A program made the translations under genes and the position numbers. 64,000 bases of DNA. Origin: Serinicoccus chungangensis. Lineage in GTDB: Bacteria; Actinomycetota; Actinomycetes; Actinomycetales; Dermatophilaceae. Positions 1,527 to 62,338 of this stretch are shown piece by piece. The DNA is taken from NCBI RefSeq assembly GCF_001483745.1, contig NZ_LQBL01000028.1, forward strand, positions 538,379 to 602,378, in the 5' to 3' direction. How positions within the stretch are numbered: the first letter of the stretch is position 1; every line of letters starts with the position of its first letter. Under the pieces are notes generated by a model. That model was given only the letters and a program-made list of their open reading frames with translations, was not told the origin of the DNA and did no database searches.

Positions 1527-2444
1527 CTAGCCACCCAGGTCGGCGACCAGCCCGGGCAGCACGTCCCCCACCAGCGCGTCGAGCCGGAGAGTGGTCTCGG
1601 CGTCGCCGCGCGTGGAGCCCCGGGTGACCACCGCGACCGGTATGCCGTCGCGCGCGGCCCGGCGGACGAACCGGTAGCCGCTCATCACCCGCAGCGAGGA
1701 GCCGAGCACCAGCAGCGCGCTCGCACCCTCGACCAGGCCGAACGCCCGCTCGACCACGTCCTTGGCGACCGAGCCACCGAAGAAGACCACGTCCGGCTTG
1801 AGCCGGTCCCCTCCGCAGACGAGGCAGCGCGGCGTGCGGAAGGTGGCGACGAGGGCCTCGGGGAGGGCGACGTCGCCGTCCGGTCTCACCTGCGCGAGGC
1901 CGTCCAGACCGGTGAGGACGTCGGGGTTGGCGTCCACCAGCCACTGCTGCACGAGGTCCCGCGAGGTCCGCTCGCCGCAGTCGAGGCAGGTGACGGCCGC
2001 CAGGGTGCCGTGCAGCTCCAGCACCCGCCGGCTGCCGGCCCGCTGGTGCAGGCCGTCCACGTTCTGGGTGATGACGTGCCGCAGCAGCCCCAGGCGCTCC
2101 AGGTCGGCGACCGCGCGGTGCGCGGCGTTCGGCTGCGCTGCCGCGAACCTCCCCCACCCCGCGAAGGCGCGCGCCCAGTACCGCTGCCGGCCCTCGGCGG
2201 AGCTGACGAACTCGCCGTGCTGCATGGGCTGCACCCGCCGGGTCCCGTCGGGCCCGCGGTAGTCCGGGATGCCGCTGGCGGTCGACATCCCCGCCCCGGT
2301 GAGGACGACGACGTCCCCGTCGGCGAGCAGCTCCCGGAGCTCGCCGAGGGCCAGCGGGTCGACCGGTGTGCGGGGTGGCAGCGTGTGGGCCAGGTCGAGC
2401 GGGCCCACGACGCTCACGCCGACCCGACCCACGCCGCGGCACAC
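1527..2444 (-). CDS. NAD-dependent protein deacetylase (sirtuin, Sir2 family)
   Basis: About 305 residues from the GTG at 2444; a start at a nearby downstream GTG (near VSVVGPLDL) is equally possible because no strong ribosome site marks either. Sirtuin motifs are complete: the NAD-binding GAGMSTASGIPDYR, TQNVDGLH, the catalytic His in LELHG, two zinc CxxC pairs (CLDCG and CLVCGG), VVFFGG and LVLGSSL. It removes acyl groups from protein lysines using NAD. The Ile of DGIPVAV is encoded by the rare codon ATA inside the dispersed octamer GGCATACC. Confidence 0.93.
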   Translation of the reverse strand: MCRGVGRVGVSVVGPLDLAHTLPPRTPVDPLALGELRELLADGDVVVLTGAGMSTASGIPDYRGPDGTRRVQPMQHGEFVSSAEGRQRYWARAFAGWGRFAAAQPNAAHRAVADLERLGLLRHVITQNVDGLHQRAGSRRVLELHGTLAAVTCLDCGERTSRDLVQQWLVDANPDVLTGLDGLAQVRPDGDVALPEALVATFRTPRCLVCGGDRLKPDVVFFGGSVAKDVVERAFGLVEGASALLVLGSSLRVMSGYRFVRRAARDGIPVAVVTRGSTRGDAETTLRLDALVGDVLPGLVADLGG

Positions 2445-2546
2445 GCGGACGCGGGCACGAGGGCGCCGCGGGCGGTGACAGGTGCGGGACGCGACGACAT
2501 GGTGGGTCCATCCTGCCAGCCGGGCGGCCGGACGGCTCGCGGGAGA

Positions 2547-5030: not shown

Positions 5031-7637
5031 TCACCCTCCCTCGCGGGCGTGCGGGACGAGCCGGCCCCCCGCGTCGCGGACGACCGCGATGTCGCCGTGC
5101 AGGTCGGTCCTCAGCACGACGGCCCCGATCTCGGAGAGCAGGCTCAGCGCGCTCGGGGCCGGATGACCGAAGTCGTTGTCCTCCCCCACGCCGATGAGCG
5201 CGATCTCCGGGCGGGCCTGGCGCACCAGCCGTTCGTCCTGCGCGGCCGAGCCGTGGTGGGCCACCTTGAGCACGTCGTAGTCCCGCCCCTCCGTCAACCG
5301 ACCGACCAGCCGGGCACCCTCCGGCTCGAGGTCACCGGTCATGAGCACCCGCGCCCCGGAGACCTCGACGTCGAGGACGATGCTGGCGTTGTTGGCCGCC
5401 GACCCGCCCGCAGGCGGCCGCGGTGTGGGCCAGAGCACGGTGACGGCGGTGTCGCCCCAGGTCCAGCGGTCCCCCGGCCGCGCCACCCTGAGGGGTATGC
5501 CCGCCGCGCCCACCTGCGCCGCGACGGACGCCGCCGACTCGGCGGGCTCCTGGACCGGCGTGACCAGCACCTCACCCACCTCCGCCGCACCGAGCACCGC
5601 CGCCAGACCGCCGACGTGGTCGCTGTGGAAGTGGGTCAGCACGAGCAGCTCGACCCGGCGCACCCCCAACAACCGCAGGCAGTCCGCCATCGCCCCCGGG
5701 TCGGGGCCGGTGTCGACCACGACGGCTCCATCGGCACCGCTGGGGAGCACGAAGGCGTCCCCCTGCCCGACGTCGCAGCCCGCGACGACCCAGCCGGGAG
5801 GTGGCCAGCCAGTGAGACCGGGCCACGGGACCACCCACACCACCACGGCGCAGCTCGCGGCGGCGGCGACCCAGGGGCGACGCCCCAGCTGGTGCGACCA
5901 CCAGCGCCTGGTGAGCAGGAGGGCCACGGTCACGGCGGCCAGCGCCCAGGCCCCCACCGCGCCGTCCCACCACTCCAGCGTCCCACCCGGCAGACGTGAA
6001 CAGACCCGGGCGATCCGGCCGATGACCCAGGCGGGCGCTGCCGCGAGCCAGGCCACCGCCGTCGCGAGCCGCACGGACAGCGGCGCCAGCAGGGCGGCGA
6101 CGACACCGAGGATGGTGGTCGGCGGGACCAGCGGTGCCGCCAGGAGGTTCGCCAGGACGGCCACCGTGGTGACCGTCCCCTGCAGCAGCACGATGACGGG
6201 GGCACAGATCACCTGCGCCGCCAGGGGCACGGCGGCCGCCCTCGCCGGCAGCGCTGCCCAGCGCGGCACCCGCGCGGCCATCGCCAGACCCCACGGGCGC
6301 GCCCACAGGACCAGGCCGAGCGTGGCGAGCGTGGACAGGGCGAACCCGTAGGAACGGGCCAGCCAGGGGTCGAGGCACAGCAGCCCGATGACGGCCGCAC
6401 CGAGGGTCGGCAGGCTCGCCCGCCGTCGGCCACCCGTGAGGGCCATCAGCCCGACCGCACCCATGACCCCGGCCCGCAGCACCGAGGGTTCCGGACGGCA
6501 CAGCAGGATGAACCCGAGCAGCGCGACGAGCACCACCGGCAGGCGCCACCCTCGGGGCAGACCCAGCCGGGCGGCGAGCAGCGCGACCCCGCCCGCCACG
6601 ATCGCGACGTTGCTGCCGCTCACCGCCGAGAGGTGCGTCATCCCGGTGTCGCGCATGGCCTGCGTCAGGTCCGGGGGCGTCAGCGAGGTGTCGCCGATCA
6701 CCAGGCCCGGCACGAGACCACGGGGGTCCGTCGGCAGCGGGTCCACGGCCTGGCGGAACCGGTCCCGGACGTGGTCGACCCCGCGCAGCAGGGCGATCGG
6801 CCGGTCCAGGGTCGTGGGTGGTCCCCGAGGCACGAGGACGGCGACGGCCCGGTCGCCGGGTTCTGCCGGGGACCACCGGCCGACCGCCTCCAGCCTGCTC
6901 CGCCAGGCGGCCTCCTCCCAGCCCTCCCCGGCGGTGGCGATGACCAGCACGGGGGTCCGCGGGCGAGCCGTCTGCCCCCGGGCGGAGGCCCGGACGACGC
7001 GGGCCTCGAGGATGACGAGCGGGTCCCGCTCGTCGGCACGTGCCAGCACCCGGGGCTCGGTGGTCACCACCAGCTCGACGCCGGTCACCGCGCGCTCCTG
7101 CGCCCACCCGGCGACCGGACCGGCACGGGCGACAGCGAGGTGCAGCGCCGCGGCGCCGCACACCAGGCCCACGGCCGCCGCCGCGAGCGCGAGCACCAGC
7201 AGCACCGGGTGGCCGGCACGACCGGACCCGTCGACCCGGCGAGCGGGCCCAGACGCGCGTCCGCGGTGGCGGCCCACCGGCGGGCCGTCGACCGCGGCGT
7301 GGAGGGGACCGGGGAACGGGGCCAGCCGGGCCATGCGGGCGAGCAGGCTCGCCACCAGGGCGAGCGCGCCGCCGGCGACCACCGCCGGCAGCCAGCCGGG
7401 ACCGGTCAGCACCCCCACCAGGACCGCCCACGCCGTGACGGCCGGCAGGAGGAGCCGCGCGTCGTGGGGCACCTCCCTCTCACCACCCGCCGGTCCCTCC
7501 GTCCCTGCCGGCCCCTCGACACCCCTCGGCCCCGCCGTGTCCACCGGCAGCACCGTCTCCGCCGGCCCCTCTGCGTCGGCAGGCCCACCCGGTCCCGCTG
7601 CGTCCCCCGCGGACGCGAGGACGCCCCGGCGGCTCAC
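5031..7637 (-). CDS. comEC: ComEC/Rec2 DNA internalisation channel protein
   Basis: 868 residues from the GTG at 7637, which overlaps the comEA stop as GTGA, indicating coupled translation. The protein opens with a Pro/Gly-rich stretch, then membrane segments, the Competence domain (MRDTGMTHLSAVSGSNVAIVAGGV, with many following helices) and a C-terminal metallo-beta-lactamase domain with LTHFHSDHVGG, MTGDLE and VAHHGS. In competent bacteria ComEC carries single-stranded DNA across the membrane, and the metallo domain may act as a nuclease. The full three-domain layout suggests a functional protein. Confidence 0.93.
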   Translation of the reverse strand: MSRRGVLASAGDAAGPGGPADAEGPAETVLPVDTAGPRGVEGPAGTEGPAGGEREVPHDARLLLPAVTAWAVLVGVLTGPGWLPAVVAGGALALVASLLARMARLAPFPGPLHAAVDGPPVGRHRGRASGPARRVDGSGRAGHPVLLVLALAAAAVGLVCGAAALHLAVARAGPVAGWAQERAVTGVELVVTTEPRVLARADERDPLVILEARVVRASARGQTARPRTPVLVIATAGEGWEEAAWRSRLEAVGRWSPAEPGDRAVAVLVPRGPPTTLDRPIALLRGVDHVRDRFRQAVDPLPTDPRGLVPGLVIGDTSLTPPDLTQAMRDTGMTHLSAVSGSNVAIVAGGVALLAARLGLPRGWRLPVVLVALLGFILLCRPEPSVLRAGVMGAVGLMALTGGRRRASLPTLGAAVIGLLCLDPWLARSYGFALSTLATLGLVLWARPWGLAMAARVPRWAALPARAAAVPLAAQVICAPVIVLLQGTVTTVAVLANLLAAPLVPPTTILGVVAALLAPLSVRLATAVAWLAAAPAWVIGRIARVCSRLPGGTLEWWDGAVGAWALAAVTVALLLTRRWWSHQLGRRPWVAAAASCAVVVWVVPWPGLTGWPPPGWVVAGCDVGQGDAFVLPSGADGAVVVDTGPDPGAMADCLRLLGVRRVELLVLTHFHSDHVGGLAAVLGAAEVGEVLVTPVQEPAESAASVAAQVGAAGIPLRVARPGDRWTWGDTAVTVLWPTPRPPAGGSAANNASIVLDVEVSGARVLMTGDLEPEGARLVGRLTEGRDYDVLKVAHHGSAAQDERLVRQARPEIALIGVGEDNDFGHPAPSALSLLSEIGAVVLRTDLHGDIAVVRDAGGRLVPHAREGG

Positions 7638-8776
7638 GGTCCGACCGTGACCAGCGGCGCCAGCTGCTCCAGGGTCCGGTCGCCGATGCCGCTCACCTCC
7701 AGCAGCTCCTCGACGGCGGTGAACCCGGCGTGCTCCTCCCGCCAGGCCAGGATGCGGCCGGCGGTCACCGGACCGATGCCGGGCAGCTCCTCGAGGTCGG
7801 CCTGGGTGGCCCGGTTGAGGTCGACCGGTGCCGTACCGGCCTCGGTGCCGCCGACCCCACCCCCGGCGCCCGCCGGCGTCGTCGCCCCGGCCGGCCCGGC
7901 GGCGGCTGACCACCCCGGAGGGGGTTCCTCACCGGGCGCCCCCACCCATACCTGCTCGCCGTCCACCACGACCCGGGCCATGTTGACGGAGCCGGGGTCG
8001 GCACCGGAGGTGAGGCCGCCCGCCGCGTCGACGGCGTCGACGACCCGGGCTCCTGGCAGCAGCTCCACGACCCCCGGCGCGGCCACGTGTCCGACGACGT
8101 GGACCAGCACGGGCCCCTCCGGGGTGGGGGCCGCCGTGCTCCCGGGCCCGGCCGGCCCATCACCACCCGACCCACCGCCACCCGATGAGTCGGCGCCTGG
8201 CTCCGCGGCCCCCGCCGGCGCACCGGGATCGCCACCCACCCCCGCCCCGTCCGTCGCCGACGGCTCACCACCTCCGACGAACCCCGCCGGCGCCGCCTCC
8301 GCCTGCTCCTGACCTGGGGCCTCCGGGAGCGCCGTGGCCTGCTGGGCGACCCACCACCACCGACCCCCGAGCACCGCCAGCACGACGACGGCGACGAGCA
8401 GCAGACCACCCACGGACCGGGCACCCACCCCGATGCTGGCGCTGCGCCCCGCCCCGGGCACCGGCACGAGCCGCATCTCGCCACCGCGCACGTCGTGGCC
8501 CGGGTGCCCGCCCCGGTCACCGTGCCCATCACCCACGACGCCGTGCCCGCCACCCCCGACACTCCCGACACCGTCCCCGGCCCGGCCGACCCCCTCCCCG
8601 GTCCGGCCGAGGCCCCGACCCGGCCCACCCCCTGCGCGCTCCCGCTCGTCCGCCTGCTCGTCCGTGGCGCCCGGCCGCACCCGCTCTCCCCGCTCGGCAC
8701 GGTCGTCCGCGTCGAGCGCCGCACGGCGCGTGCGGTGCCTGCCCTGGTGCAGGGCCTCCATGTCCCCCGAGTCCAT
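7634..8776 (-). CDS. comEA: ComEA family DNA-binding protein (SLBB + helix-hairpin-helix)
   Basis: About 380 residues from the ATG at 8776, 7 bp downstream of the -10-like TAGCGT (8784-8789 read on the minus strand); an ATG at 8761 is an alternative. A basic cytosolic N-terminus precedes one membrane helix (VGGLLLVAVVVLAVLGG). A low-complexity Gly/Ala/Pro linker follows, then an SLBB domain (VLVHVVGHVAAPGVVELLPGARVVDAV) and a C-terminal helix-hairpin-helix pair (LNRATQADLEELPGIGPVTAGRILAWR). It would bind incoming double-stranded DNA at the cell surface and pass it to ComEC. The N-terminal extension is longer than in Bacillus ComEA. Confidence 0.9.
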   Translation of the reverse strand: MDSGDMEALHQGRHRTRRAALDADDRAERGERVRPGATDEQADERERAGGGPGRGLGRTGEGVGRAGDGVGSVGGGGHGVVGDGHGDRGGHPGHDVRGGEMRLVPVPGAGRSASIGVGARSVGGLLLVAVVVLAVLGGRWWWVAQQATALPEAPGQEQAEAAPAGFVGGGEPSATDGAGVGGDPGAPAGAAEPGADSSGGGGSGGDGPAGPGSTAAPTPEGPVLVHVVGHVAAPGVVELLPGARVVDAVDAAGGLTSGADPGSVNMARVVVDGEQVWVGAPGEEPPPGWSAAAGPAGATTPAGAGGGVGGTEAGTAPVDLNRATQADLEELPGIGPVTAGRILAWREEHAGFTAVEELLEVSGIGDRTLEQLAPLVTVGP

Positions 8777-8880
8777 GGTCGGCACGCTAGGAGCCCGACG
8801 CACCCCGCGGGAGGGGGGCGGGCGCATCTGTGGACGGCCGGGGCGCGCCCCGGAGGGTGTGGACGACGCGGAGCTCGGAG

Positions 8881-8950: not shown

Positions 8951-9811
8951 TCAGCCGGCGTCGGCCACCACGACCCCGAGGGTGCCCGGGCCGGTGTGCA
9001 CGCCCAGGCTGGGGTCCAGGGGCAGCACGAGCGGGTCGAGAGCCAGCCGCTGCCCCAGACGGCCCGCCAGCCCGGCGGCGGCCTCCTGGGCGTCCAGCTC
9101 GTGCACGGCCAGCCGCGGCCTCCCGCCCGTGGCGCGCATGCGCCCGACCGCGTCGTCCACCAGCGCCTCCAGCCGGGCGAGCGCCTTGCCCCGGGTCCGC
9201 ACCCGCTCGGCGAGCACCACCTCCCCGTCGGCCACGGTCAGCAGCGGCTTGATGGCCAGCGCCGACCCGAGCACGGCCTGCGACCGGCCGAGCCGGCCGC
9301 CGCGCCGCAGGTGCTCGAGGGTGTCGACGTAGAACCACGCGCTCGCCCCGGCCAGCCGACGGTGCACCAGGGCCTCGACCTCCGTCAGGCTCGCTCCGTC
9401 CGCCGCCAGCGCCGCGGCGTCCTGAGCGGCCCAGCCGAGCGTCATACCGACCGTGCGGGAGTCCAGCACCCGCACGTCCACCTCGTCCGCCACCTCCGCC
9501 GCGGCGAGCCGGGCGGCCTCCACCGTCCCGCTCACCCTGCCGGACAGGTGCACGGACACGACGGCCCGGCAACCGGTACGACCCACCAGCTCGCGGTATG
9601 CCTCGACGAACTCCCCCGGCGACACCCGGCTGGTCGAGACGCCGACCCGGTGCGTGGCCGGGCGCAGGGCCTCGACCACCTCCGCGTGCCCGACCTCGCG
9701 GGTGTCCCCGCGCCGTCCGGCGACCATGACGTGCAACGGGACCACCGACAGCGCCCGCCCGGCCCCGGGGGGCAGGCAGCTGGCGCTGTCGGTGACGAGG
9801 GCGACGTCCAT
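8951..9811 (-). CDS. DegV family fatty-acid-binding protein
   Basis: 286 residues from the ATG at 9811, 13 bp after the leuS stop and probably co-transcribed with it. DegV hallmarks are VTDSASCLPP at the N-terminus, the lipid-contacting VSTSRVSPGEF loop, VSVHLSGRVSGTVEAARLAA and the ALAIKPLL segment. Family members bind long-chain fatty acids in a deep cleft; some serve as FakB, the acyl carrier for fatty-acid kinase. No kinase gene is nearby, so a role in lipid uptake is possible but unproven. Confidence 0.88.
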   Translation of the reverse strand: MDVALVTDSASCLPPGAGRALSVVPLHVMVAGRRGDTREVGHAEVVEALRPATHRVGVSTSRVSPGEFVEAYRELVGRTGCRAVVSVHLSGRVSGTVEAARLAAAEVADEVDVRVLDSRTVGMTLGWAAQDAAALAADGASLTEVEALVHRRLAGASAWFYVDTLEHLRRGGRLGRSQAVLGSALAIKPLLTVADGEVVLAERVRTRGKALARLEALVDDAVGRMRATGGRPRLAVHELDAQEAAAGLAGRLGQRLALDPLVLPLDPSLGVHTGPGTLGVVVADAG

Positions 9812-9824
9812 GGTCGGAGCGGGC

Positions 9825-12752
9825 TCAGACGACGATGTTGACCAGGCTCGGGGCCCGCACGACGACCTTGCGCACGGGCGCCCCGTCGAGGAAGCGCTGC
9901 ACCTTCTCGCTGCCCAGCGCCAGCGCCTCGAGGTCGGCCTCGGAGATGTCGGCCGCGACGTCGAGCCGGTCGCGCACCTTCCCCTTGACCTGCACCACCG
10001 CCGTCACCGAGTCCTCCACGAGCAGAGCCGGGTCGGCCTGCGGGAAGGGCGCGTAGGTCAGGTCCTCGTGCCCGAGCCGCTCCCACAGCTCGGCGGCCAG
10101 GTGCGGGGCCACCGGAGCCACCATCTGCACCAGCGGCTCCACGGCTGCCCGGGGCACGGTGTCCAGCTTGGTCAGCAGGTTGTTGAGCTCGATCATCCGG
10201 GCGATCGCCGTGTTGGTGCGCAGGGCGGCGTAGTCCGACCCCACCGCGTCGATGGTCCGGTGCAGCGCCTTGGCCAGCGCCGGGCTCAGCGCCTCCTCGG
10301 TCACCGTCACCTCGCCGGTGTCCTCGTCCACGACGTTGCGCCACAGGCGCTGGAGGAAGCGCTGGCTGCCGACGACGGCGCGGGTCTCCCAGGGGCGGTA
10401 CTGCTCCAGCGGCCCCATGCTCATCTCGTAGACCCGGAAGGTGTCCGCCCCGAACTGCTCGACCATCTCGTCGGGGGTGACGACGTTCTTGAGCGACTTG
10501 CCCATCTTGCCGTACTCCTGGGTGACCGGCTGGCCGTGCCAGGTGAACGTCGAGGGCCCTCCGTCGGAGGAGGTGTGCTCCTCCACCTCCGCCGCGGGCA
10601 CGGGGAAGCCGCGGTCGTCACGGTAGACGTAGGCCTCGATCATGCCCTGGTTGATGAGGCGCCGGAACGGCTCCTCGCTGCTCACGTGGCCCAGGTCGAA
10701 GAGGACCTTGTGCCAGAAGCGGGCGTAGAGCAGGTGCAGCACGGCGTGCTCCACCCCGCCGACGTAGAGGTCGACCCCGCCCGGGTCGACGGCACCCTCC
10801 GGGGCCCCCGGGACGGTCTGCTCACGGGGACCGATCCAGTAGCCCTCCACCTCCGGGTCGACCGGCGCCGCGGTGTTCTCCGGGTCCAGGTAGCGCAGGT
10901 AGTACCAGCACGACCCGGCCCAGTTCGGCATGGTGTTGGTCTCGCGGCGCACCGGCACCGGACCCCGCCCGTCGCCGAGGTCCATCGTCGTGTGCACCCA
11001 GTCGGTCGCTCGGGCCAGGGGCGCCTCCGGCTCGGAGTCGGCGTCGTCGGCCTCGAAGGTGCGCGGCGCGTAGTCGGGCACGTCCGGCAGGGTGACCGGC
11101 AGCTGGTCGTCGGGGACGGCGTGGGCCACGCCGTCCTCGTCCCAGACCAGGGGGAAGGGCTCGCCCCAGTAGCGCTGCCGGCTGAACAGCCAGTCGCGCA
11201 GCCGGTAGGTCACGGTCGCGCGACCGCGGCCGGTCTGCTCCAACCAGGCGATGATCCGCTCCTTGGCGTCCTCGACCCCCAGCCCGTCCAGGCTGATCTC
11301 GTCGTTGGCCGAGTTGATCGCCGGGCCCTCCCCGGTGAACGCCTGGTCCTCCGGGTGGTCCGGCGTCGGCTGCACCGTGCGCACGACCGGTAGGTCGAAG
11401 GCCCGAGCGAAGTCCCAGTCGCGCTCGTCCTGCCCGGGCACCGCCATGATGGCGCCGGTCCCGTAGCCCATGAGCACGTAGTCGGCCACGAAGACCGGCA
11501 CGGGTGCACCGGTGACGGGGTTCGTCGCCCAGGCGCCGCTGAAGACGCCGGACTTCGCCTTGCCCTCGGTCTGGCGCTCGACGTCGCTCTTGGCCGCGGC
11601 CTGCCGCTGGTATGCCGTGACCGCCTCGCGCGGGGTCGAGGCGCCCGCGGTCCACGCGTCCTGGGTGCCGGCGGGCCAGGCCTCGGGCACGATCTGCGCG
11701 ACGAGCGGGTGCTCGGGCGCCACCACCATGAAGGTGGCCCCGAAGAGGGTGTCGGGCCGGGTGGTGAAGACCTCCAGCGACGCCTCCCCCCCGGTCGTCG
11801 TCGGGACCGGGAAGGCGACCTGCGCGCCGGTCGAGCGACCGATCCAGTTGCGCTGCATGAGGCGCACCCGCTCCGGCCAGTCCAACCGGTCCAGGTCGTC
11901 GGTGAGGCGGTCGGCGTACGCGGTGATCCGCATCATCCACTGCGACAGGTTGCGCTTGAAGACGGGCAGGTCGCCCCGCTCGGACCGGCCGTCGGCGGTG
12001 ACCTCCTCGTTCGCCAGCACGGTGCCCAGACCGGGGCACCAGTTGACCGGCGCCGCCGAGACGTAGGCCAGCCGGTAGCCGTCCAGCACCCGCGCCTGCT
12101 CGGCCGGGGAGAGCTCACCCCACGGACGACCGCCGGGGACCTCGCGGCGGCCGTCGGCGAACTGCTCGACGAGCTCGCGGATCGGCCGGGCCCGGCCCGG
12201 CGCGCTCTGCCCCGACCCCGGTCGAGGGTCCGCCTCCGGGTCGTACCACGCGTCGTGGATCTGCTGAAAGATCCACTGCGTCCAGCGCACGTAACCGGGG
12301 TCGATGGTGGCGAAGGTGCGCCGGGGCTCGTGCGAGAGCCCGATCATCCGCATCTGCCGGCGGTAGGTCGACATCGCCTCCTCGGTCGTCACCCGGGGGT
12401 GCTGCCCGGTCTGCACGGCATAGTGCTCCGCCGGCAGCCCGAAGGCGTCGAACCCCATGGCGTAGAGGACGTTGGCGCCGGTCGTGCGCAGGAACCGTGC
12501 GTGGACGTCGGTCGCGACGTAACCGAGCGGGTGCCCGACGTGCATCCCGGCACCGGAGGGGTAGGGGAACATGTCCATGACCACCCGGTGCCCACGCCCC
12601 TCGGCGAGCCGCGGGTCCTCCGGCGTCGCCCAGGGGCCGGCCGGGTTGGCCGAGGCGAAGGTGTCCTCCCGCTCCCACCGGTCCTGCCAGCGGCCCTCGA
12701 TGCGGCCGGCCAGCTCGGCGGTGTAGCGGTGCTGGGGGGTGCGCTCGCTCAT
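9825..12752 (-). CDS. leuS: Leucyl-tRNA synthetase
   Basis: 975 residues, starting [14 protein letters not shown], slightly long as in other actinobacterial LeuRS. Class I signatures are present: the HIGH-type motif in [16 protein letters not shown] and the KMSKS-type loop as [10 protein letters not shown]. The CP1 editing domain lies between them, with [20 protein letters not shown]. It charges tRNA-Leu with leucine. A leader peptide with three consecutive Leu codons and a terminator precede it, so expression should respond to leucyl-tRNA supply. Confidence 0.97.
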
Positions 12753-13437: not shown

Positions 13438-14412
13438 TCAGCCGTTGCGCTGCCGGCAGACCTCCAGCACCGCGCGCTCCACGGCATACTCCGGGCTGCG
13501 GACGCTCGCCTCCGTCCGGATGCCGCCCTTGACGTCGACATCGGCCTGCGCGACGGCCTGGATCGCCCGGCCCAGACGCTCGCCGTCCCAGCCCTGGCTG
13601 ACCCGTCGAGCAGCGTCCACCTGCCAGGGGGCCATGCCGAGGTCGCGGGCGAGCTGGGCCGACCCGCCGCGCCCGGCGGAGGCCACCTTGCCGACCTGAC
13701 GCAGCTGCATCGCCAGCACCGCCACGATGGGCACCGGGTCCAGACCCCCGAGCATGACGTGCCGGAGCAGGGCCATCGCGGTCGCCTCGTCGCCCGCGAG
13801 GGCCGCCTCGGCGACCCGGAAGCCGGTCGTCTCGACCTTCTCGCCGTAGTAGGTGGTGACGTCGTCGACCTCCACGAGGCCCTCGACGTCCCGGATGAGC
13901 TGCTCGCACGCCGCGGCCAGCTCGCGCAGGTCCTTGCCGACCGCGAGCACCAGGGCCCCGACGGCCTCCGGCGCGATCTTGCGCCGGGCGTCCCGGAACT
14001 CCCCGGTGACGAACTCGTGCTTGTCCCGATCGGTCTTGACGGCCTTGGCCTCGACGACCCTGGCGCCCCCCTTCCGCAGGGCGTCCAGCACCCGCTTGCC
14101 GCGGTTGCCCGACTTGTGCCGCACGACCAGGGTGACCGCGTCGGCGGGCTGCTCGAGGTAGCCGACCAGGTCCTCGACCAGCGCGTCGTCGGCCTCGTCC
14201 ATGTCGTGGACGACGATGACGCTCCAGCCACCGAAGAGGCTGGGGCTCGCGTGGACCAGCAGCTCGCCGGCCTGGTAGCTCGACGGGTGCACGCGGACCA
14301 CCTCCGCGTCCGGCTCGGAGGCCCGCACGGCGGCCAGGATCGAGTCGACGCCGCGCTCGGCCCGCAGCTCCTCGGGGCCGGTGATGAGCGCCAGGGGCGG
14401 CGGCCCGCTCAC
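13438..14412 (-). CDS. holA: DNA polymerase III subunit delta
   Basis: 324 residues from the GTG at 14412, which overlaps the upstream stop as GTGA. HolA features are visible: [21 protein letters not shown] at the N-terminus, [24 protein letters not shown], and the C-terminal helical bundle with [21 protein letters not shown]. Delta is the wrench of the clamp loader and opens the sliding clamp. The comEA-comEC-holA-rpsT cluster of many bacteria is split here by leuS and degV. Confidence 0.92.
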
Positions 14413-19319: not shown

Positions 19320-19379
19320 GGCCCCAGGGTATGCCGTGGCCCCCGCCCGCGCTGACGCCGTCCACAGCCCGGCCAGGGC

Positions 19380-46110: not shown

Positions 46111-47514
46111 TCAGTCGCGGGTCCGGCGGCGCGGCCACCAGCGCGAGCGCGCGGCGTCCACGGAGCTGCGACGCCCGCTGACCAGATGGGCCAGGGTGCG
46201 GATGGACTCGCGCGCCGGGCTGGAGGGGCGTGCCTCGGCGAGGGTATGCCCGTGGAGCAGGGCCGCGTCCACGGCGTCGCGGTCCTCGGGGACGAGGTGC
46301 ACCTGGCCCACCCCGGCGAAGCGCCGCAGGGTCTCGGTGATCCGCCGGCCGGGCTCGGGACCGACCGGTCCGGGGCGCACCCGCGTCACCACCACCTGGG
46401 CCTTCGCCCTGGTGAGCCCGGGCAGCTGGTCGACGCACCGGACGAGCCGCTGCAGGCCCACCGGGTCGCCGGTGCCGACCACCAGCACCCGGTCGGCGTC
46501 CTCCAGCGCGGCGAGCGCGGCCCCGTTGCGCCGCGGTGCGCTGGTGTCGAAGGACAGCTCCTCGTCCTGCTCGACCGTCGGCGCGACGTCGACCACCACC
46601 CAGCGGGCCACCGACCGGGCCTGCTGGAGGATGTCCGCCAGGGCGCTCTCCCGCAGCTCGGTCCACCGGTCGGCGCGGGGCAGCCCGGTAAGGACGAGCA
46701 GCCCCGGGCGCACCCGCGGGGCGAGGCGCAGGAGATGGTCGGCGTCCAGGGTGCCCTGGTCGGCGGCACGGGCGGCGGCCGCGACCCCCGGCGACTCGTC
46801 GAGCACGGCCAGCGCCTGCGCCACGCCCGCACCGTAGGTGTCCGCGTCCACGAGGAGGACCGGCGTCGTCACCGACGCCAGCTCGGCGGCGAGGTTGACG
46901 GCGACGGTGGTGCGGCCGGTGCTCCCGTGCGGCCCCCACACCACCACGACCTCGCCCTCGGGCGTGGCGTCCTGCCGGGTCAGCTCCTCCTGGTCCGTCC
47001 CCAGGGCCCGGTCCGGCCCGGGGTGGTCCTGCTGCACCCCCTGCGGACCGGCCTCGACGAGCAGGGCGGCCGGGTCGGGCGCCGGCCCGGGCCCGGGGCC
47101 GGGCCCGGCGGGCCCGGGTCCACCGGCCCCCGCCGCTCCGCGGTCGTCCTCGGGGGCGTCCGCCCGCCCCAGCGCGGCGAGCACCGCGTCGAGCTCCGGG
47201 GTGCTGCTCTCGACCTCCAGCACCGAGGTCACGCCGCGGCGGTGCAGGGTGCGCGCCGCCTCCGGGTCGTCGCGCGGATGCACGCCCACCACGTGCGCGC
47301 CCGCGGCACCCAGACCCAGCACCGCGTCCCGGTCCAGACCACGCAGGTCGTGCGAGACGAGGACGACGTCCGCCAGGCCCGCCCGGGTGACGCCCATCAG
47401 CTCGGGCAGGTCGGCGCACCGGCGCACCAGCCGCACCTGGGTGGACCCGGCCAGCAGGGCCGCGACCTGGCTCTCCCACCGGGGGGCCACGGCGGTGACC
47501 AGCGGACGGCTCAC
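46111..47514 (-). CDS. CpaE-like MinD/ParA-type ATPase
   Basis: 467 residues from the GTG at 47514, overlapping the previous stop as GTGA. A response-regulator-like N-terminal domain (VVLVSHDLRGLDRDAVLGLGAAGAHVVGVHPRDD) leads through a Pro/Gly linker to a deviant Walker ATPase: VWGPHGSTGRTTVAVNLAAEL, VLLVDADTYG, VVVDVAPTVEQ. Both Lys residues of the usual K-GG-x-GKT are replaced. CpaE proteins localise Flp/Tad pilus machinery, but no Tad genes are next to it; only the CpaB-like gene precedes it. Confidence 0.82.
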   Translation of the reverse strand: MSRPLVTAVAPRWESQVAALLAGSTQVRLVRRCADLPELMGVTRAGLADVVLVSHDLRGLDRDAVLGLGAAGAHVVGVHPRDDPEAARTLHRRGVTSVLEVESSTPELDAVLAALGRADAPEDDRGAAGAGGPGPAGPGPGPGPAPDPAALLVEAGPQGVQQDHPGPDRALGTDQEELTRQDATPEGEVVVVWGPHGSTGRTTVAVNLAAELASVTTPVLLVDADTYGAGVAQALAVLDESPGVAAAARAADQGTLDADHLLRLAPRVRPGLLVLTGLPRADRWTELRESALADILQQARSVARWVVVDVAPTVEQDEELSFDTSAPRRNGAALAALEDADRVLVVGTGDPVGLQRLVRCVDQLPGLTRAKAQVVVTRVRPGPVGPEPGRRITETLRRFAGVGQVHLVPEDRDAVDAALLHGHTLAEARPSSPARESIRTLAHLVSGRRSSVDAARSRWWPRRRTRD

Positions 47515-53370: not shown

Positions 53371-55209
53371 ATGGCTGAGGATGCCGCATCGAGCGTGGGG
53401 CCGGTGCGCCAGCAGAAGGGGTGGCGGATCGTGCCGCCGCACGAGGGGCACCTCGCGCTGCTGCTCGACCTGGGGGCCGACGGGGAGGCGCGCCGGTGGG
53501 GTGACGCCGTGCCCGTCCGGGACCCCGGCGCTGCGCGGGCGTGGGTGGCGGTCGCCCGCGACGGGTGGGCCGGCCGGCACCGCTGGGCCCCGCGGCGCTG
53601 GGTCGTGGAGGGGTCCGCCGGGGTGGCGACCGGGCCGGGTGCGGACGAGGTATGGCGTCCGGCCGGCATCGTGGAGTACCGCCCGGACGGCCACGGCGGC
53701 GCCGAGGTCGGGTACGCCGTCCACCCGGACCACCGTGGTCACGGGGTCGCCACGCGAGCGCTGGGGCTGGCCCTGGACCACGCCTTCGGCGAGGACGACG
53801 TGGTCCTCGCCCGCTGGCGTGCCGAGGTCGGCCACTGGGCCTCCCGGCGGGTCGCCTGGCGGCTGGGGTTCTCGGCGCCGGTGCAGGTCCGGGGGCTGCT
53901 GCCGGGGTGGGACCAGGACACCGCGCCCCGCGACGGATGGCTGGCCACGCTGCACCGGGACGACCCGCGGGAGCCGGCACACCCGTGGCGCGAGATCCCC
54001 GTCCTGACCGAGCAGGACGCCGACGTCCGGCTGCGTCCGTGGCGGGCCGACGCCGACGACACGGCGGCGCTGATGTCGGTGGACGACGTCGCCCGGCAGT
54101 TCGTCGGGCCGGTCCTGCCCGGGGCCGGTGAGGAGGCCGTGCGGGCCTGGACCAGGGCCCGGCGGGAGTCGGCGCTGCTCGGGCACGGCCTGAGCTGGTG
54201 CATCGCCGACGCCCGCTCCGACGTGGCGCTCGGGGGCATCTCCCTCTTCGACCTGCTGGACCCCTTCGCCCACGGGTGCGCCGAGGTGGGCTACTGGCTC
54301 CTCCCCGCCGGCCGGGGGCGCGGGGCGGTGACCCGGGCGTTGCGCCTCGTCACCCGGTACGCCGTGGCCGAGCTCGGCGTGCACCGGGTCCTCGCCCAGA
54401 CCGACGAGCGCAACGACGCCTCGCACCGCGCGCTCCTGCGCGCCGGCTTCCGGTGGACGGTCACCGAGCCGCGGTCGTGCGTCTACGCCGCCGGGGGTGA
54501 GCAGCACGGCACCGCCCGCTTCGCGCTGCTCGACGACGAGGGCCGGTCCCCCGGGCCGCCGGGTCCTCCCCCTGCTGTGGTGGCCGCGGGGCACCCGCCC
54601 GCGTCCTCCGGCACGACCCCGGACCCCCCGGTGCCGCGGGCGCCGGTCCCGACGCTGCGCGCCGACCCCCTGGTGCTGCGCCCCTGGCGCACCGGGGACG
54701 AGGACCGGGTCGTCGAGGCGGTGACCGACCCGCTCACCCGGCAGTACCTCCCCGAGCTGCCCGACCCGTACGGCCGCCCCGAGGCGGCCTCTTTCCTCGA
54801 GGCCTGTGCCGAGGCGAGCGCGCGCGGCGAGCGGCTCACCTGGGCGGTGGCGGACGCGGCCGACGACCGGGTGCTGGGCGCGGTCAGCCTCACCCGGACG
54901 TCCGCCTCGGGAGCGCCCGGGGAGATCGGCTACTGGGCCCACCCGGACGCGCGCGGCCGCGGCCTGACCACGGCCGCGGTGCGCGCGGTCGTCCGGTATG
55001 CCCTCGCGCCGGTGGCCGGGGAGGGCCTGGGCCTGCGACGGGTCTGGGTGCAGGCGGCGGAGGGCAACCTGGCCAGCCGGCGCGTCGCGGTGGCGGCGGG
55101 GCTGCGCGAGGTGGGGCGGGACCGTCAGGCCGAGGTCCTGCGCGACGGGACCGTCGAGGACCTGGTGCGGCTGGACCTGCTGGCGCAGGAGCTGCCGAGC
55201 CCCACGTGA
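53371..55209 (+). CDS. Triple GNAT-domain acetyltransferase
   Basis: 612 residues from the ATG at 53371, 7 bp after the -10 TAGGCT (53358-53363). Three GNAT units are read in order: about 1-205 (AEVGYAVHPDHRGHGVATRAL), about 215-395 (AEVGYWLLPAGRGRGAVTRALRL) and about 430-605 (GEIGYWAHPDARGRGLTTAAVRA). Each contains the acetyl-CoA-binding R-G-x-G core. A Pro-rich linker separates units 2 and 3. GNAT proteins usually have one or two domains. The substrate is unknown; the units may acetylate amino groups of peptides, antibiotics or metabolites. Confidence 0.88.
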   Translation: MAEDAASSVGPVRQQKGWRIVPPHEGHLALLLDLGADGEARRWGDAVPVRDPGAARAWVAVARDGWAGRHRWAPRRWVVEGSAGVATGPGADEVWRPAGIVEYRPDGHGGAEVGYAVHPDHRGHGVATRALGLALDHAFGEDDVVLARWRAEVGHWASRRVAWRLGFSAPVQVRGLLPGWDQDTAPRDGWLATLHRDDPREPAHPWREIPVLTEQDADVRLRPWRADADDTAALMSVDDVARQFVGPVLPGAGEEAVRAWTRARRESALLGHGLSWCIADARSDVALGGISLFDLLDPFAHGCAEVGYWLLPAGRGRGAVTRALRLVTRYAVAELGVHRVLAQTDERNDASHRALLRAGFRWTVTEPRSCVYAAGGEQHGTARFALLDDEGRSPGPPGPPPAVVAAGHPPASSGTTPDPPVPRAPVPTLRADPLVLRPWRTGDEDRVVEAVTDPLTRQYLPELPDPYGRPEAASFLEACAEASARGERLTWAVADAADDRVLGAVSLTRTSASGAPGEIGYWAHPDARGRGLTTAAVRAVVRYALAPVAGEGLGLRRVWVQAAEGNLASRRVAVAAGLREVGRDRQAEVLRDGTVEDLVRLDLLAQELPSPT

Positions 55210-55255: not shown

Positions 55256-56461
55256 TCAGACCGGGAGGTCGACCCTCCCCAGCCCCAACCAGCCGGCCAT
55301 CGTCTCCAGCTCGTCGACCAACCGGGGGGCGGCGTGCGCCATGTCGACGCCCTGCTCCCAGTGGACGGCCCGCGCGCGGAGCACCCCGGCCTCCCGGTCC
55401 GCCTTGAGGTCGACCCGCCCCACGAGGTGCTCGTCGAGCAGGAAGGGCAAGACGTAGTAGCCGTGCACCCGCTGCGGCGCGGGGACGTAGATCTCGAGCC
55501 GGTAGCGGAAGCCCCAGAGCTGCTCCACCCGCTCGCGCTGCCAGACGAGGGAGTCGAACGGGCTCAGCAGGGCGGCGCCCTCCACCCGCCGAGGGCGTCG
55601 CGCCCCGGGGTCCAGCCACACCGGGCGGTCCCACCCGTCGACGTGCACCCGCTCGGCCCGTCCCTGCGCCTCGAGCCTCGCGAGGGCCGCCGTCACGACC
55701 GGCCCGCGCACCCGGAAGTAGTCGGCCAGGCAGCGGGCGCTGCCCAGACCGTGCGCCCGCAGCGCGACGGCCAGCAGCTCCACCACCGACTCCAGCTCCC
55801 CGGGAGCGTCCGGCTCGCCGGGCGCACGCCGCAGGACCTCCGGGGGGAGCACCCGCTCGGGACAGGCATACCGCCGCTCGAACTGGCTGGTCCGCGCGGC
55901 GCTGGTCAGCTCGCCGGTCGCGAAGAGCGACTCCAGGGAGGTCTTGACCGCCGACCAGTTCCACCCCCAGTGGTCGGTGCGGCGGGTCGCGCCGTGGGGC
56001 AGGTGCACCTCGACCTCACGGGCGGTGAGCGGCCCGTGCTCCGCCACCACCTCGCCGACCGCCTCCAGCAGGCCGGGGTGCTCGTCCCGCAGCTGCTCGC
56101 GGCGCGCGAGGACGCGGGGGCGGCGCATCCGGAAGCCGAGGAGGGGCCAGGTCTCCAGCGGCACGAGCGACGCCTCGTGCGCCCAGACCTCGACCATGCG
56201 GCGGCCCGCGCGGGCACCGCCCCGCACTCCTGCGCCGTCCCGCATACGGTCCAGCGACGCGGTGTCGTAGGCGCCGAGGCGGGAGAAGAACGGCAGGTAG
56301 TGGCTGCGGGCGAGGACGTTGACGCTGTCGATCTGGACGACGCCGAGACGCTCCAGGACGCCGGTGAGCCGGCGCGCGCCCGGGTCCTGCGGACGGGCCC
56401 GGTCGAAGCCCTGGGCGGCGAGCGCGACACGACGGGCCTGCGCCGGGGTGAGGGTCAGCAC
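55256..56461 (-). CDS. YcaQ/AlkX-family DNA glycosylase (winged-helix)
   Basis: About 401 residues from a GTG at 56461 (AGGGTGG upstream); a GTG 9 bp earlier (56470) is possible. The HTH_42 family features are LTPAQARRVALAAQGF, VVQIDSVNVLARSHYLPFFSRLG, WAHEASLVPLETWP and the catalytic-type QxR/W region VWQRERVEQLWGFRYRLEIYVP. Members include E. coli YcaQ, which unhooks interstrand crosslinks. Here the role in crosslink repair is inferred from the family. Confidence 0.87.
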   Translation of the reverse strand: MLTLTPAQARRVALAAQGFDRARPQDPGARRLTGVLERLGVVQIDSVNVLARSHYLPFFSRLGAYDTASLDRMRDGAGVRGGARAGRRMVEVWAHEASLVPLETWPLLGFRMRRPRVLARREQLRDEHPGLLEAVGEVVAEHGPLTAREVEVHLPHGATRRTDHWGWNWSAVKTSLESLFATGELTSAARTSQFERRYACPERVLPPEVLRRAPGEPDAPGELESVVELLAVALRAHGLGSARCLADYFRVRGPVVTAALARLEAQGRAERVHVDGWDRPVWLDPGARRPRRVEGAALLSPFDSLVWQRERVEQLWGFRYRLEIYVPAPQRVHGYYVLPFLLDEHLVGRVDLKADREAGVLRARAVHWEQGVDMAHAAPRLVDELETMAGWLGLGRVDLPV

Positions 56462-57397: not shown

Positions 57398-58147
57398 CTA
57401 GTCCGGCTCGCCCGCGCGCGATAGGTCAGGCCTGGGGTCGGCGCGCCCGCGCCGGGCGGTCGCCGCCACGGTGGCCGCGACCACCCCTCCGGCGCCGGCC
57501 CGACGCAGCGCGCGGGCGCACTCGGCGAGCGTCGCGCCGGTGGTGACGACGTCGTCGACGACGACGCAGGGCACACCCGCGAGAGCACCCGCCAGCCCGG
57601 TGCGCACCCGGACGGCGCCGTCGAGGTTCGCCGCCCGCTGCGCGGCCGACAACCCCGCCTGGTCGGCGACGGCGCGAGCCAGGACGAGGGCCGGGACCAC
57701 GGCACGCCGCGTCCCGGCCGCGACGACGGCGAGCTCGCGCACCGGGGAGCGGCCGCGCGCGCGGGTGCTGGCCGGCGCCGACGGGGCCGGGACCACGGCC
57801 ACCGGACGGCCGGCCCCCAGGGCGTCCCGGTGCTCCGGGGAGCCCTCGAGGGCGGCGGTCATCGCAGCGCGCAGCACCTCCCCGAGGGCCGCCGTCAGGT
57901 CCACCCGGTCCTGCTCCTTCCAGGCGACGACGAGGGAGGGCAGGGCGCCGTCGTAGGCCGGGCCCGACCAGGTCGGCGGGAAGCCCGGCGGGCAGGGCGT
58001 GGGGCGCCAGGGGCGCGGACCCGTCGCGCGCAGCTCCCCGAGGCAGTCGGGACAGAGACGACGCCCCGCCCGTCCGCAGCCGGCGCACCCGGACGGGGCC
58101 ACCAGCTCCAGCAGGGCACGCAGGTCCTCCCCCGGCCGCCACGGCAT
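57398..58147 (-). CDS. comF: ComF family phosphoribosyltransferase-like protein
   Basis: About 249 residues from the ATG at 58147; an ATG at 58219 lies upstream but within an 18-bp repeat and is less likely. Four zinc Cys (CAGCGRAGRRLCPDC) precede the PRTase fold with the PRPP loop VVVDDVVTTGATLAECA and the RANLDGAVRV segment. ComF takes part in DNA uptake or recombination in competent bacteria. Its TAG stop provides the first three bases of the hpf uORF -10 box. Confidence 0.9.
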   Translation of the reverse strand: MPWRPGEDLRALLELVAPSGCAGCGRAGRRLCPDCLGELRATGPRPWRPTPCPPGFPPTWSGPAYDGALPSLVVAWKEQDRVDLTAALGEVLRAAMTAALEGSPEHRDALGAGRPVAVVPAPSAPASTRARGRSPVRELAVVAAGTRRAVVPALVLARAVADQAGLSAAQRAANLDGAVRVRTGLAGALAGVPCVVVDDVVTTGATLAECARALRRAGAGGVVAATVAATARRGRADPRPDLSRAGEPD

Positions 58148-58148
58148 A

Positions 58149-58170
58149 CCCCAGGGTCGCACCCCTGGGG
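58149..58170. terminator. Hairpin immediately upstream of comF
   Basis: CCCCAGGG (58149-58156) pairs with CCCTGGGG (58163-58170). The stem ends 1 bp before the comF ATG. It may terminate transcripts from lpqB or cover the comF ribosome site. Confidence 0.45.
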
Positions 58171-60025: not shown

Positions 60026-61692
60026 CAGTCGTCCTCTCTCGTGGCCAGCGCCAGCACCACCGGGGGCACCTCGGCGTCACGGGCAGCGGTGGTGCCACCG
60101 ACCGGACCGGGCCCGGAGGGCACCTCCGGTGGTTCGTCGGCGATGACATGGGTATGGGCGCGGGGCAGCATCAGGCGGAAGCAGGCACCCTCGCCGGGCC
60201 GGCTGCCGACCTGCAGCCACCCGCCGTGGACGCGCGCGTCCTCCTGGGCGATCGCCAGCCCGAGGCCGGTGCCGCCGGTGGTGCGGGTGCGCGCGGGGTC
60301 GGCCCGCCAGAACCGGTCGAAGACCTGGTGGCGCTGCTCCTCGGTCAGCCCGATGCCGTGGTCGCGCACGCTGACCGAGACCACGTGCGGGTTGCTGGCC
60401 ACGGTGACGTCCACCGGCAGCCCCTCGCCGTGCTCGACGGCGTTGGTCAGCAGGTTGCGCAGGATGCGGGAGACCCGTCGCCCGTCCATGCAGACCTCCA
60501 CCCGCTCGCTGGGCACGTGCACCCGCAGCGTCGTGCCCACCTTGTCGGCGAGGGTCTGCACCCCCTGCACCGCGGCGACGACGGTCGGCAGGATGTCCTC
60601 CTCGTGGCGCTCGACGGTGGCGGCCCCGGAGTCGAAGCGACTGATCTCGAGCAGCTCGGCGAGCAGCTCCTCGAACCGGTCCATCTCCTGGTCGAGCAAC
60701 TCGGCGGACCGGGCGACCGGCGCCGCGAAGTCCTCCCGCGAGGCGTGCAGCACGTCGCCGGCCATCCGCATGGTCGTCAGCGGGGTGCGCAGCTCGTGCG
60801 AGACGTCGGAGACGAAGCGCTGCTGCAGCTGGGACAACGAGCGCAGCTCGCGGATCTGGTGCTGGATGGAGTCGGCCATGGTGTTGAAGGAGGTCGCGAG
60901 CTGGGCGATCTCGTCGCTGCCCACGACCGGCAGCCGCTCGTCGAGGTGCCCCTGCGCCACCTCCTGGGACGCCTTGGCCACCTCCTCCACCGGCCGCGTG
61001 ACCATGCGGGTCGCCAGCAGCGCCAGGCCGACGGCCAGGGCGAGCAGCCCCAGCCCGCCGAGGAGGAAGAGCTGGCGGACGAGGTCGAGGGTCTCCTGCT
61101 CGCGGAGCAGCGGGTAGACGAGGACGAGGTCGTAGGGACCCGCGCGCAGCAACGACACCCGCGACCCCACCACCACGGCCGCCGTTCGTTCCTGGCCCTC
61201 GCCGAGCGACACCGGGACCACCATGACCTGCTGGTTGGCCGGGTCCTGGGCGATCGCCTCCCGCAGCTCGCCGGGCACGTCCTCGGCGAGGACACCGGTG
61301 GACATGCGCTCCACCACGCCGCTGGTGTTGGTCAGGGCGGGCAGCAGCAGCGCCCGCCGCCCGTCCGCGGCCGACGGCCCGCTCATCGACTGGATCTGCT
61401 CCTCGGCCAGACCCCGCAGACCGCTGTCGTCCCGGCGGTCGGTGGAGTCGAAGGCCCGCTGGGCGTTGGCGACCTGCTGGGAGGCGTCCCGCTCGGCGCT
61501 GTCGACGGCCTGCTCCACCAGCCCGCGGGAGACCTGCTGGTAGAGCAGGGTGCCGAGCAGGAGGGCGAGCAGGGTGCCGACCAGGACCGTCGAGGTGACG
61601 ACCCGCGCCCGCAACGAGCCCCGCCACCAGGTCAGCACGCGCCGACCGGCGGCGACCCCGTCAGGGGTGCCCGGCCTTGTATCCGACGCCAC
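60025..61692 (-). CDS. mtrB: Sensor histidine kinase MtrB
   Basis: 555 residues from a GTG at 61692, overlapping mtrA by 32 bp; a downstream GTG near VLTWWRG is possible. Two membrane helices (VVTSTVLVGTLLALLLGTLL and LGGLGLLALAVGLALLATRM) flank an extracellular loop, then a HAMP domain, the phospho-acceptor His in SDVSHELRTPLTTMRMAGD and the HATPase domain (NLLTNAVEHGEG, DHGIGL). It phosphorylates MtrA to control cell-wall and division genes. Confidence 0.95.
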   Translation of the reverse strand: MASDTRPGTPDGVAAGRRVLTWWRGSLRARVVTSTVLVGTLLALLLGTLLYQQVSRGLVEQAVDSAERDASQQVANAQRAFDSTDRRDDSGLRGLAEEQIQSMSGPSAADGRRALLLPALTNTSGVVERMSTGVLAEDVPGELREAIAQDPANQQVMVVPVSLGEGQERTAAVVVGSRVSLLRAGPYDLVLVYPLLREQETLDLVRQLFLLGGLGLLALAVGLALLATRMVTRPVEEVAKASQEVAQGHLDERLPVVGSDEIAQLATSFNTMADSIQHQIRELRSLSQLQQRFVSDVSHELRTPLTTMRMAGDVLHASREDFAAPVARSAELLDQEMDRFEELLAELLEISRFDSGAATVERHEEDILPTVVAAVQGVQTLADKVGTTLRVHVPSERVEVCMDGRRVSRILRNLLTNAVEHGEGLPVDVTVASNPHVVSVSVRDHGIGLTEEQRHQVFDRFWRADPARTRTTGGTGLGLAIAQEDARVHGGWLQVGSRPGEGACFRLMLPRAHTHVIADEPPEVPSGPGPVGGTTAARDAEVPPVVLALATREDD

Positions 61693-62338
61693 GCACCGTC
61701 ACCACGATCTGGGGGTTCTCGGGGTCCTTCTCGATCTTGCTGCGCAGGCGCTGGACGTGCACGTTGACCAGCCGGGTGTCGCCCGCGTGGCGGTAGCCCC
61801 AGACCTGCTCCAGCAGCGACTCCCGGTCGAAGACCTGCGTAGGCTTGCTCGCCAGCGCCACGAGCAGGTCGAACTCCAGCGGGGTCAGCGGGATCTGCTC
61901 GCCGGACCGGGTCACCTCGTGCCCGGCCACGTCGATCAGCACGTCGCCCACCTGCAACCGGGTGTCGTCGCCGGTGTCGGTGCGGCGCAGCCGCGCCCGG
62001 ATCCGGGCCAGCAGCTCCTGCGGCTTGAACGGCTTGACGACGTAGTCGTCGGCGCCGGCCTCCAGACCCAGGACGACGTCCTTGGTGTCCGTGCGGGCGG
62101 TGAGCATGACGACGGGGATCCCGGACTCGGCGCGCAGCTCACGGCATACCTCGATCCCGTCCTTGGACGGCAGCATGACGTCCAGGAGGACGAGGTCGGG
62201 GCGGAACTCGCGGAACATCGGCATCGCCCGTCCCCCGTCGGCGCAGCTCGCGACCTCGTAGCCCTCCTTGCGCAGCACGATGCCCAGCATCTCGGCCAGG
62301 GCCTGGTCGTCGTCGACCACGAGTACTCGAGCGCTCAC
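61661..62338 (-). CDS. mtrA: Response regulator MtrA
   Basis: 225 residues from a GTG at 62338 with AGGAGG upstream. Receiver domain with VVDDDQALAEML, the phospho-Asp in LVLLDVMLPSKDG and the Lys in VVKPFKPQE, then an OmpR-type winged helix (LTPLEFDLLVALASKPTQVFDRESLLEQVWGYRHAGDTRLVNVHVQRLRSKIE). MtrA is a near-universal actinobacterial regulator of division, wall and DNA replication genes. Confidence 0.97.
   Translation of the reverse strand: MSARVLVVDDDQALAEMLGIVLRKEGYEVASCADGGRAMPMFREFRPDLVLLDVMLPSKDGIEVCRELRAESGIPVVMLTARTDTKDVVLGLEAGADDYVVKPFKPQELLARIRARLRRTDTGDDTRLQVGDVLIDVAGHEVTRSGEQIPLTPLEFDLLVALASKPTQVFDRESLLEQVWGYRHAGDTRLVNVHVQRLRSKIEKDPENPQIVVTVRGVGYKAGHP

Follow-up and report, generated by a model that had tools for sequence, protein, structure and literature searches.

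The stretch analysed here (hereafter the window) comprises 64,000 nucleotides of Serinicoccus chungangensis (C28:538379-602378 of assembly G000, which has 3,556,988 bases in 33 contigs) and carries 24 exact copies of the octamer GGTATGCC, 16 on the forward and 8 on the reverse strand, spanning positions 1639 to 62150. Exact copies that extend to the 10-mer GGTATGCCGT were located on the forward strand at 1639..1646, 11609..11616, 19328..19335, 20949..20956, 22379..22386, 22762..22769, and 38316..38323, and on the reverse strand at 43507..43514, 58143..58150, and 62143..62150. The other exact copies were at 5494..5501, 9595..9602, 26394..26401, 29053..29060, 34901..34908, 37456..37463, 40096..40103, 46243..46250, and 54995..55002 on the forward strand and at 17469..17476, 21515..21522, 22928..22935, 29766..29773, and 55865..55872 on the reverse strand. 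The core GTATGCCG without the leading G was matched exactly at 13482..13489 (reverse) and 24137..24144 (forward). Two predicted competence genes lie among these sites on the reverse strand. A comEC/rec2 gene for the competence DNA channel (5031..7913, start codon provisional) matched NCBIfam TIGR00361 above its cut-off (E 1.9e-57) and Pfam PF03772 at G000:C28:544276-545082, and a comEA-like gene for a surface DNA-binding protein (7634..8827) scored 51.9 bits against TIGR00426, just below the cut-off of 53.1, at G000:C28:546027-546209 (window 7649-7831). Both genes possibly belong to the process that uses the word.

The excess of the octamer, which the initial annotation had pointed out in the window, was larger than that annotation had claimed and was far from local. 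Dinucleotide shuffles of the window (n = 100) contained 0.63 copies on average and 3 at most, and a third-order Markov model predicted 1.2, making GGTATGCC the top 8-mer at that order (z 17.5). The whole genome contained 1375 copies (677 forward and 698 reverse), against 18 of the reversed control, i.e., the same letters read backwards. In an 864-kb sample (24% of the genome, window included), the observed and expected counts at order 3 were 300 and 15.5 for GGTATGCC, 339 and 19.3 for GTATGCCG, and 100 and 0.9 for GGTATGCCGT, respectively. At order 5 the expectation for GGTATGCC rose to 288, because the 6-mers within the word are common only via the word itself. The earlier statement that related hexamers were near background held in substance: GGTATG/CATACC occurred 474 times against 192 expected in the same sample, an excess of about 280 that approximates the word count.

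The consensus in G000 was (G)GTATGCCG(T/C). Within the 864-kb sample, position 1 was soft, with variants beginning with T (53 vs. 5.3 expected) or A (27 vs. 6.4) also enriched, position 9 was G in 80% of sites, and position 10 was T or C in 73%. One-mismatch variants at positions 2-8 of the 8-mer reached only 0-3.2 times their expectation, compared with 19 times for the word itself. In other word-bearing genera (14 locus sets, two loci of which overlap), GTATGCC accounted for 282 of 309 occurrences of TATGCC and was followed by G in 281 of 282 cases; therefore, the family core is GTATGCCG(T/C), with the leading G preferred in Serinicoccus and Ornithinimicrobium. Neither flanking repeats past about 10 bp nor AT-rich flanks were seen around the sites of the sample. 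Two other words, AACCATTC (19 vs. 1.0 at order 5) and CAACCATTCG (11 vs. 0.2), stood out in the C28 and C2 portions of the sample and probably represent a small repeat family.

Protein-coding requirements did not account for the word. Among 522 genes from a crude GC-frame caller, which left 24.9% of the sequence uncalled, GGTATGCC occurred 215 times, compared with 16.0 after synonymous-codon shuffling, and all six frame and orientation contexts were enriched, as the initial annotation had argued in describing an excess in every reading frame without a protein motif; a codon or protein cause is ruled out by these shuffles. The word contained 26 of the 68 ATA and 79 of the 275 TAT codons of the called genes, and the tripeptide GIP was found 74 times against 37.5 expected. 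Whatever the mechanism, a strong force must act on words that shape from one quarter to one third of two rare codons, TAT and ATA. Sites were balanced with respect to gene orientation (105 sense and 110 antisense) and flat along gene length, and those outside called genes (84 of 300) were proportionate to the uncalled sequence. Sites were also conserved between genomes. G306 and G317, aligned over 141.6 kb with 82.9% identity, had 42 of 69 and 42 of 71 sites in common, compared with 36-37% for anagram controls, while G000 and G313 (73 kb, 88.0%) shared 31 of 47 and 31 of 40, with controls at 50%. Single mismatches made up 38-48% of the lost sites versus 52% in controls, which is only suggestive of a recombinational origin of new sites.

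The distribution of the word was examined in 186 genomes of 53 genera (family f1), a set that we take to match the breadth of GTDB Dermatophilaceae; the NCBI family for a Serinicoccus-like host is Ornithinimicrobiaceae. The LeuRS encoded in the window has 96% identity to that of an uncultured Serinicoccus and 87% to that of Serinicoccus kebangsaanensis, in line with such a host. Genomes were regarded as word-bearing when they contained at least 100 copies of GTATGCCGY and at least three times the reversed control, a threshold that we set ourselves and counted by hand. By this measure, 114 of the 186 genomes carried the word, and G480 had the most, with 3538 copies in 3.1 Mb. All of the 30 other genomes of the same genus as G000 contained 285-2180 copies of GGTATGCC, except G318 (38). 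Variation within a genus could be large, as the g252 genomes held 11, 1694, and 347 copies. Outside the family, the density in 293 genomes of the phylum was at most about 64 per Mb, compared with 387 per Mb in G000, and the highest total among them was 408 (G050, reversed control 146). In 22 genomes from other families of the order, 3-111 copies were counted; the clearest mild excess in that list was in G338, with 111 copies in 2.8 Mb against a reversed control of 24. Both the genome-wide count and the counts in relatives thus extend the excess well beyond the window.

A second word was found through k-mer over-representation in samples of genomes lacking the first. In the g246 sample, CCCCCTTCG, i.e., CGAAGGGGG, occurred 54 times against 3.2 expected in 100 kb, and in the Janibacter melonis sample, CCCCTTCG occurred 42 times against 5.7 expected in 60 kb. 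The 16 g246 genomes contained 797-1860 copies of CGAAGGGGG and the three g255 genomes, which include Janibacter melonis, contained 1317-1939, compared with 11-80 in the remaining 167 family genomes and 1-100 in 166 genomes from other families of the order. Conversely, these 19 genomes held only 6-40 copies of GGTATGCC and 4-25 of GTATGCCGY. The two words, neither of which is palindromic, were thus mutually exclusive (0 of 186 genomes carried both), and the thresholds divided the family into 114 genomes with the first word, 19 with the second, and 53 with neither. Among the genomes with neither word, no further dialect was outstanding in the g200/Phycicoccus-Nostocoides pool (225 kb) or in G318 (68 kb), and the Amycolatopsis, Micromonospora, and other pools consisted of orthologous loci and were uninformative in this respect. 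A weak excess of CGTACGCC in g254 (43 vs. 9.4 in 60 kb; loci L222, L223, and, from G437, L099) may reflect codon usage or represent a third word of lesser strength. Separately, the palindrome AAGTACTT occurred 18 times in 220 kb around the comEC genes of 11 word-bearing genomes (L082-L092, pooled; 0.3 expected) and 8 times against 0.3 in 100 kb of g246 (L217-L219, L095, and L096), and the shorter AGTACT occurred five times in the window. This palindrome is possibly a conserved regulator site.

The arrangement of the sites, which could not have been visible to the earlier reader, was strand-specific. The strand bias that had been considered possible did not hold up: the 16:8 ratio in the window gave p 0.15, the genome-wide counts were balanced, and the two GC-skew arms of the complete genome G302 held 62 forward and 70 reverse sites and 77 and 75, respectively (21 stretches of 20 kb). 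The long G000 contigs were likewise balanced (73:66 in C28 1-400000 and 44:45 in C2), and a KOPS-type, FtsK-orienting word was rejected on the same C28, C2, and G302 counts, which showed no skew toward the terminus. Pairs of sites were then compared with position shuffles within 20-kb blocks, with pairs treated as independent. In the cleaner set (979 kb of G000 and 420 kb of G302), same-strand pairs were depleted both below 300 bp (26 vs. 78 expected) and at 300-1000 bp (137 vs. 180), while opposite-strand pairs were not (83 vs. 81 and 235 vs. 196, respectively). Two genomes added separately, G306 and G317, showed 3 and 6 same-strand pairs below 300 bp against 9.2 and 11.6 expected. Five of the nine control words clearly clustered on the same strand, and none was depleted apart from one whose count was too low for a verdict (1 vs. 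2). In a pooled set that is partly redundant (8 kb of G302, L062/L081, counted twice in the earlier pooled spacing and inverted-pair sets, and orthologous, partly overlapping loci included among the other genomes), the ratio of observed to expected same-strand pairs was 0.16-0.55 below 500 bp, 0.73-0.74 up to 1 kb, and about 1 beyond, and opposite-strand pairs showed no overall depletion, the exception being 200-300 bp, where 21-22 pairs were expected and the ratios were 0.56 and 0.73. The second word behaved alike: its 125 sites, sampled over 160 kb, formed 29 same-strand pairs closer than 1 kb against 50.6 expected (p 0.007), compared with 58 against 54.4 for opposite-strand pairs. Its opposite-strand pairs below 100 bp were in excess (12 vs. 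5.7, z 2.9; L217-L221 and L095-L097) and perhaps form hairpin terminators as with the uptake signal sequences (USS) of Pasteurellaceae, a feature not seen for the first word.

Long site-free intervals were close to chance: 979 kb contained 11 gaps longer than 8.5 kb, and random spacing would give about 8; one of the 11 overlies secA in the window. We annotated three gap regions, selected for low GC and covering 4 of the 11 gaps. The site-free C2:1-20677 contained an integrase and a TrwC relaxase, C8 31.8-55.6 kb (two sites only) contained IstB, an ISL3 transposase, and surface-glycan genes, and C28 133.4-148.5 kb contained a tyrosine recombinase, yet also the end of gyrA. As a selection of our own, these regions are at most compatible with a scarcity of the word in acquired DNA. 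The gene content of C2:1-20000 (L021), namely a phage-type integrase, a cadmium resistance transporter, and a TrwC relaxase with primase domains, marks it as a probable integrative or conjugative element.

Competence, pilus, and recombination genes were surveyed across the family. ComEC was detected in 180 of 186 genomes, and the assemblies of the six others are incomplete or fragmented; ComEA was detected in all 80 genomes tested (37 above the curated cut-off), 43 of which were word-less; the Tad-type T2SSF domain was detected in 183 of 186 and PilM in just 7 of 186. Com and Tad genes are thus present and type IV pili mostly absent. An apparent rarity of comEA at word-bearing comEC loci (4 of 12 vs. 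7 of 8 by blastp) was discarded as a gene-calling artefact in light of the 80 of 80 result. RecC (PF04257) was patchier, occurring in 89 of 186 genomes and 24 of 53 genera, which suggests repeated loss or gain within one family. It was present in 18 of the 19 second-word genomes and missing from many word-rich ones, namely all nine g249, both g236, 10 of 11 g2, and 8 of 9 g265 genomes. Overall, the distribution of the words (114 present, 19 replaced, 53 absent) tracked none of the gene families tested (RecC, ComEC, PilM, T2SSF, and ComEA). Competence genes were consequently rejected as the cause of word presence or choice, as ComEC, ComEA, and T2SSF are near-universal and PilM is nearly absent. 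The proximity of comEA and comEC, offered initially in support of DNA uptake, is no evidence by itself, because such genes are also found in word-less genomes.

The same-strand avoidance, seen with both words, indicates a reader that works unidirectionally and has a reach of about 1 kb. A word that is clade-bound and replaced in one group, indifferent to replication and transcription, able to change codons and some residues, and laid out strand by strand is best explained by a one-direction reader acting on pieces of DNA whose ends may have either polarity. Such a reader would fit the uptake of DNA from relatives and its subsequent recombination, and biased uptake would supply a drive that raises the number of words; molecular drive of this type has been described for USS (available text of PMC7811141). 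We therefore consider, with a probability of roughly one half, that (G)GTATGCCG(T/C), and CGAAGGGGG in the Janibacter group, are clade-specific self-recognition words read in one direction, of the same kind as DNA uptake sequences (DUS). Under this reading, free DNA would be bound at the word, always in the same orientation, by a surface receptor belonging to the com/Tad machinery of competence, and the DNA on one side of the word, or one strand, would be pulled in and then recombined. DNA carrying the word would be taken up more often, such that biased uptake and recombination would spread it despite some coding cost, and a further copy in the same orientation would add nothing if it lay within about 1 kb, while one in the opposite orientation would contribute. 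The DNA-level function proposed initially is strongly supported by the genome-wide excess, the dialects, the override of codon choice, the spacing, and the conservation; among the functions then offered, an uptake word fits best, given the dialects, the lack of replication-strand bias, the very strong enrichment, and the presence of com and Tad genes.

Several observations weigh against uptake. ComEC, ComEA, and T2SSF fail to separate word-bearing from word-less genomes, and with com and Tad genes near-universal, no computed result ties the word to competence specifically. The bias in reading-frame orientation reported for DUS and USS (in the portions available of PMC2346458) is absent here, where sense and antisense sites are nearly equal in number. 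Close inverted pairs (gaps below 50 bp), which as terminators are common with DUS and USS and do not define them, were unenriched for the first word (10 vs. 11.9 in G000 and 5 vs. 14.8 in G302, the latter from the set that double-counts 8 kb). Strand-specific avoidance was not found reported for DUS or USS in the accessible parts of the literature, and hence is not an established hallmark of such words. Those parts name uptake words from two Gram-negative families only, and the open-access full texts, as distinct from subscription papers and preprints, yielded no report of this word or of any uptake word in Actinobacteria or other Gram-positives; among the text matches listed for the word, the hits appear to be primers or unrelated sequences.

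The main rival is a Chi-like recombination signal: a helicase-nuclease that enters at a DNA end would recognize the word in a single orientation and, on meeting it, change over to producing a recombinogenic single strand. Such a directional reader predicts the avoidance on the same strand and independence on the opposite strand observed here, since close sites in the same orientation are redundant, and the word is over-represented and conserved as would be expected; an enzyme other than RecBCD would predict the same layout. The more than 100-fold enrichment of the 10-mer, however, exceeds what is usual for Chi words. Chi words do differ among lineages (available text of PMC8022716), but the balanced arms of G302 show no polarity along the replichores, and RecC does not follow the word, with AdnAB and AddAB not searched for. 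RecBCD-Chi is thereby ruled out as a general explanation, making the RecBCD type of the initially suggested chi-like signal unlikely, and we regard Chi-like signals as a whole as a minority possibility. A rather less probable explanation is another strand-specific DNA actor, such as a nucleoid, repair, or defence protein, or a mutational process that creates the word. A distribution that follows no tested gene family leaves room for such an actor, although a mutational origin would leave unexplained both the low ratios of the one-mismatch variants and the avoidance on one strand.

Slightly further down in our estimation is a mark of methylation or strand identity, whereby a solitary methylase would modify the asymmetric word on one strand and each strand would need a mark about every kb, for example for strand discrimination in repair. 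Separate marks on the two strands would make same-strand sites redundant without any replication or transcription bias, and HIP words with lineage-specific replacements are known (in the accessible part of PMC4390886). Against this, the word is non-palindromic, unlike HIP1, and selection on single sites strong enough to alter amino acids is hard to envisage. An artefact of codon usage, protein motifs, base composition, or repeats is scarcely credible: other over-represented 8-mers of these genomes are indeed codon words, but the synonymous shuffles, the enrichment in all six contexts, and the proportionate sites outside genes contradict it, the flanks contain no repeat past about 10 bp, and the control words cluster on the same strand where the word avoids itself.

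Returning to uptake, it would follow that Actinobacteria own direction-reading uptake words, two or more dialects of which occur within one family, and that each strand has its sites about 1 kb apart or more, a generalization that we hold a little more tentatively than the reading of the words themselves. If true, an uptake-word system would be known for the first time beyond the Gram-negative families, and for the first time with a strand-by-strand layout. The origin, spread, and switching of uptake words are debated as products of selfish drive or of selection; an independent second origin in Actinobacteria, with two exclusive words and variation across about 50 genera, would offer a strong comparative test, and the same-strand avoidance, common to the two, provides a fresh quantitative clue.

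The following comparison with known systems relies, for published features, on the accessible portions of the papers cited. The USS of Pasteurellaceae (Hin and Apl types) are likewise short words with hundreds to thousands of copies on both strands, within and between genes, and bound to a family (PMC1626085, PMC7811141), and their two alternative words in two subclades parallel the dialect switch observed here (PMC1626085). The density in G480 resembles that of Haemophilus USS, about 1 per kb (PMC7811141). The present system differs from USS in its actinobacterial host, the lack of AT-rich flanks, the lack of a close inverted-pair excess for the first word, and the same-strand avoidance, which is unreported for USS in the portions available. 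The DUS of Neisseriaceae, whose receptor is ComP, also form dialects in related genera (PMC12061091); Neisseria DUS are spaced about 1 kb apart, and the range of avoidance here resembles the 1.1-1.7 kb conversion fragments (PMC2397512). A strand preference has been reported for DUS in single-strand transformation (PMC12061091, PMC2397512), and the DUS ATGCCGTCTGAA (as given in PMC2346458) shares ATGCCGT with the first word, by chance or not. A CTG core is common to the eight dialects of DUS (PMC12061091), whereas no shared core was seen between the two words here. Chi, read by RecBCD or AddAB, is likewise lineage-specific, octamer-like, and over-represented, and presumably has a single reading direction; the present word differs in lacking leading-strand polarity and in its independence of RecC. 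The HIP1 element of cyanobacteria shows a comparably extreme, clade-wide 8-mer excess with other words in some members (PMC4390886), but it is palindromic and overlaps orphan methylase sites, in contrast to the asymmetric word described here. Within the Actinobacteria, Micrococcus luteus is transformed by means of com genes and Flp/Tad pili (PMC6370729).

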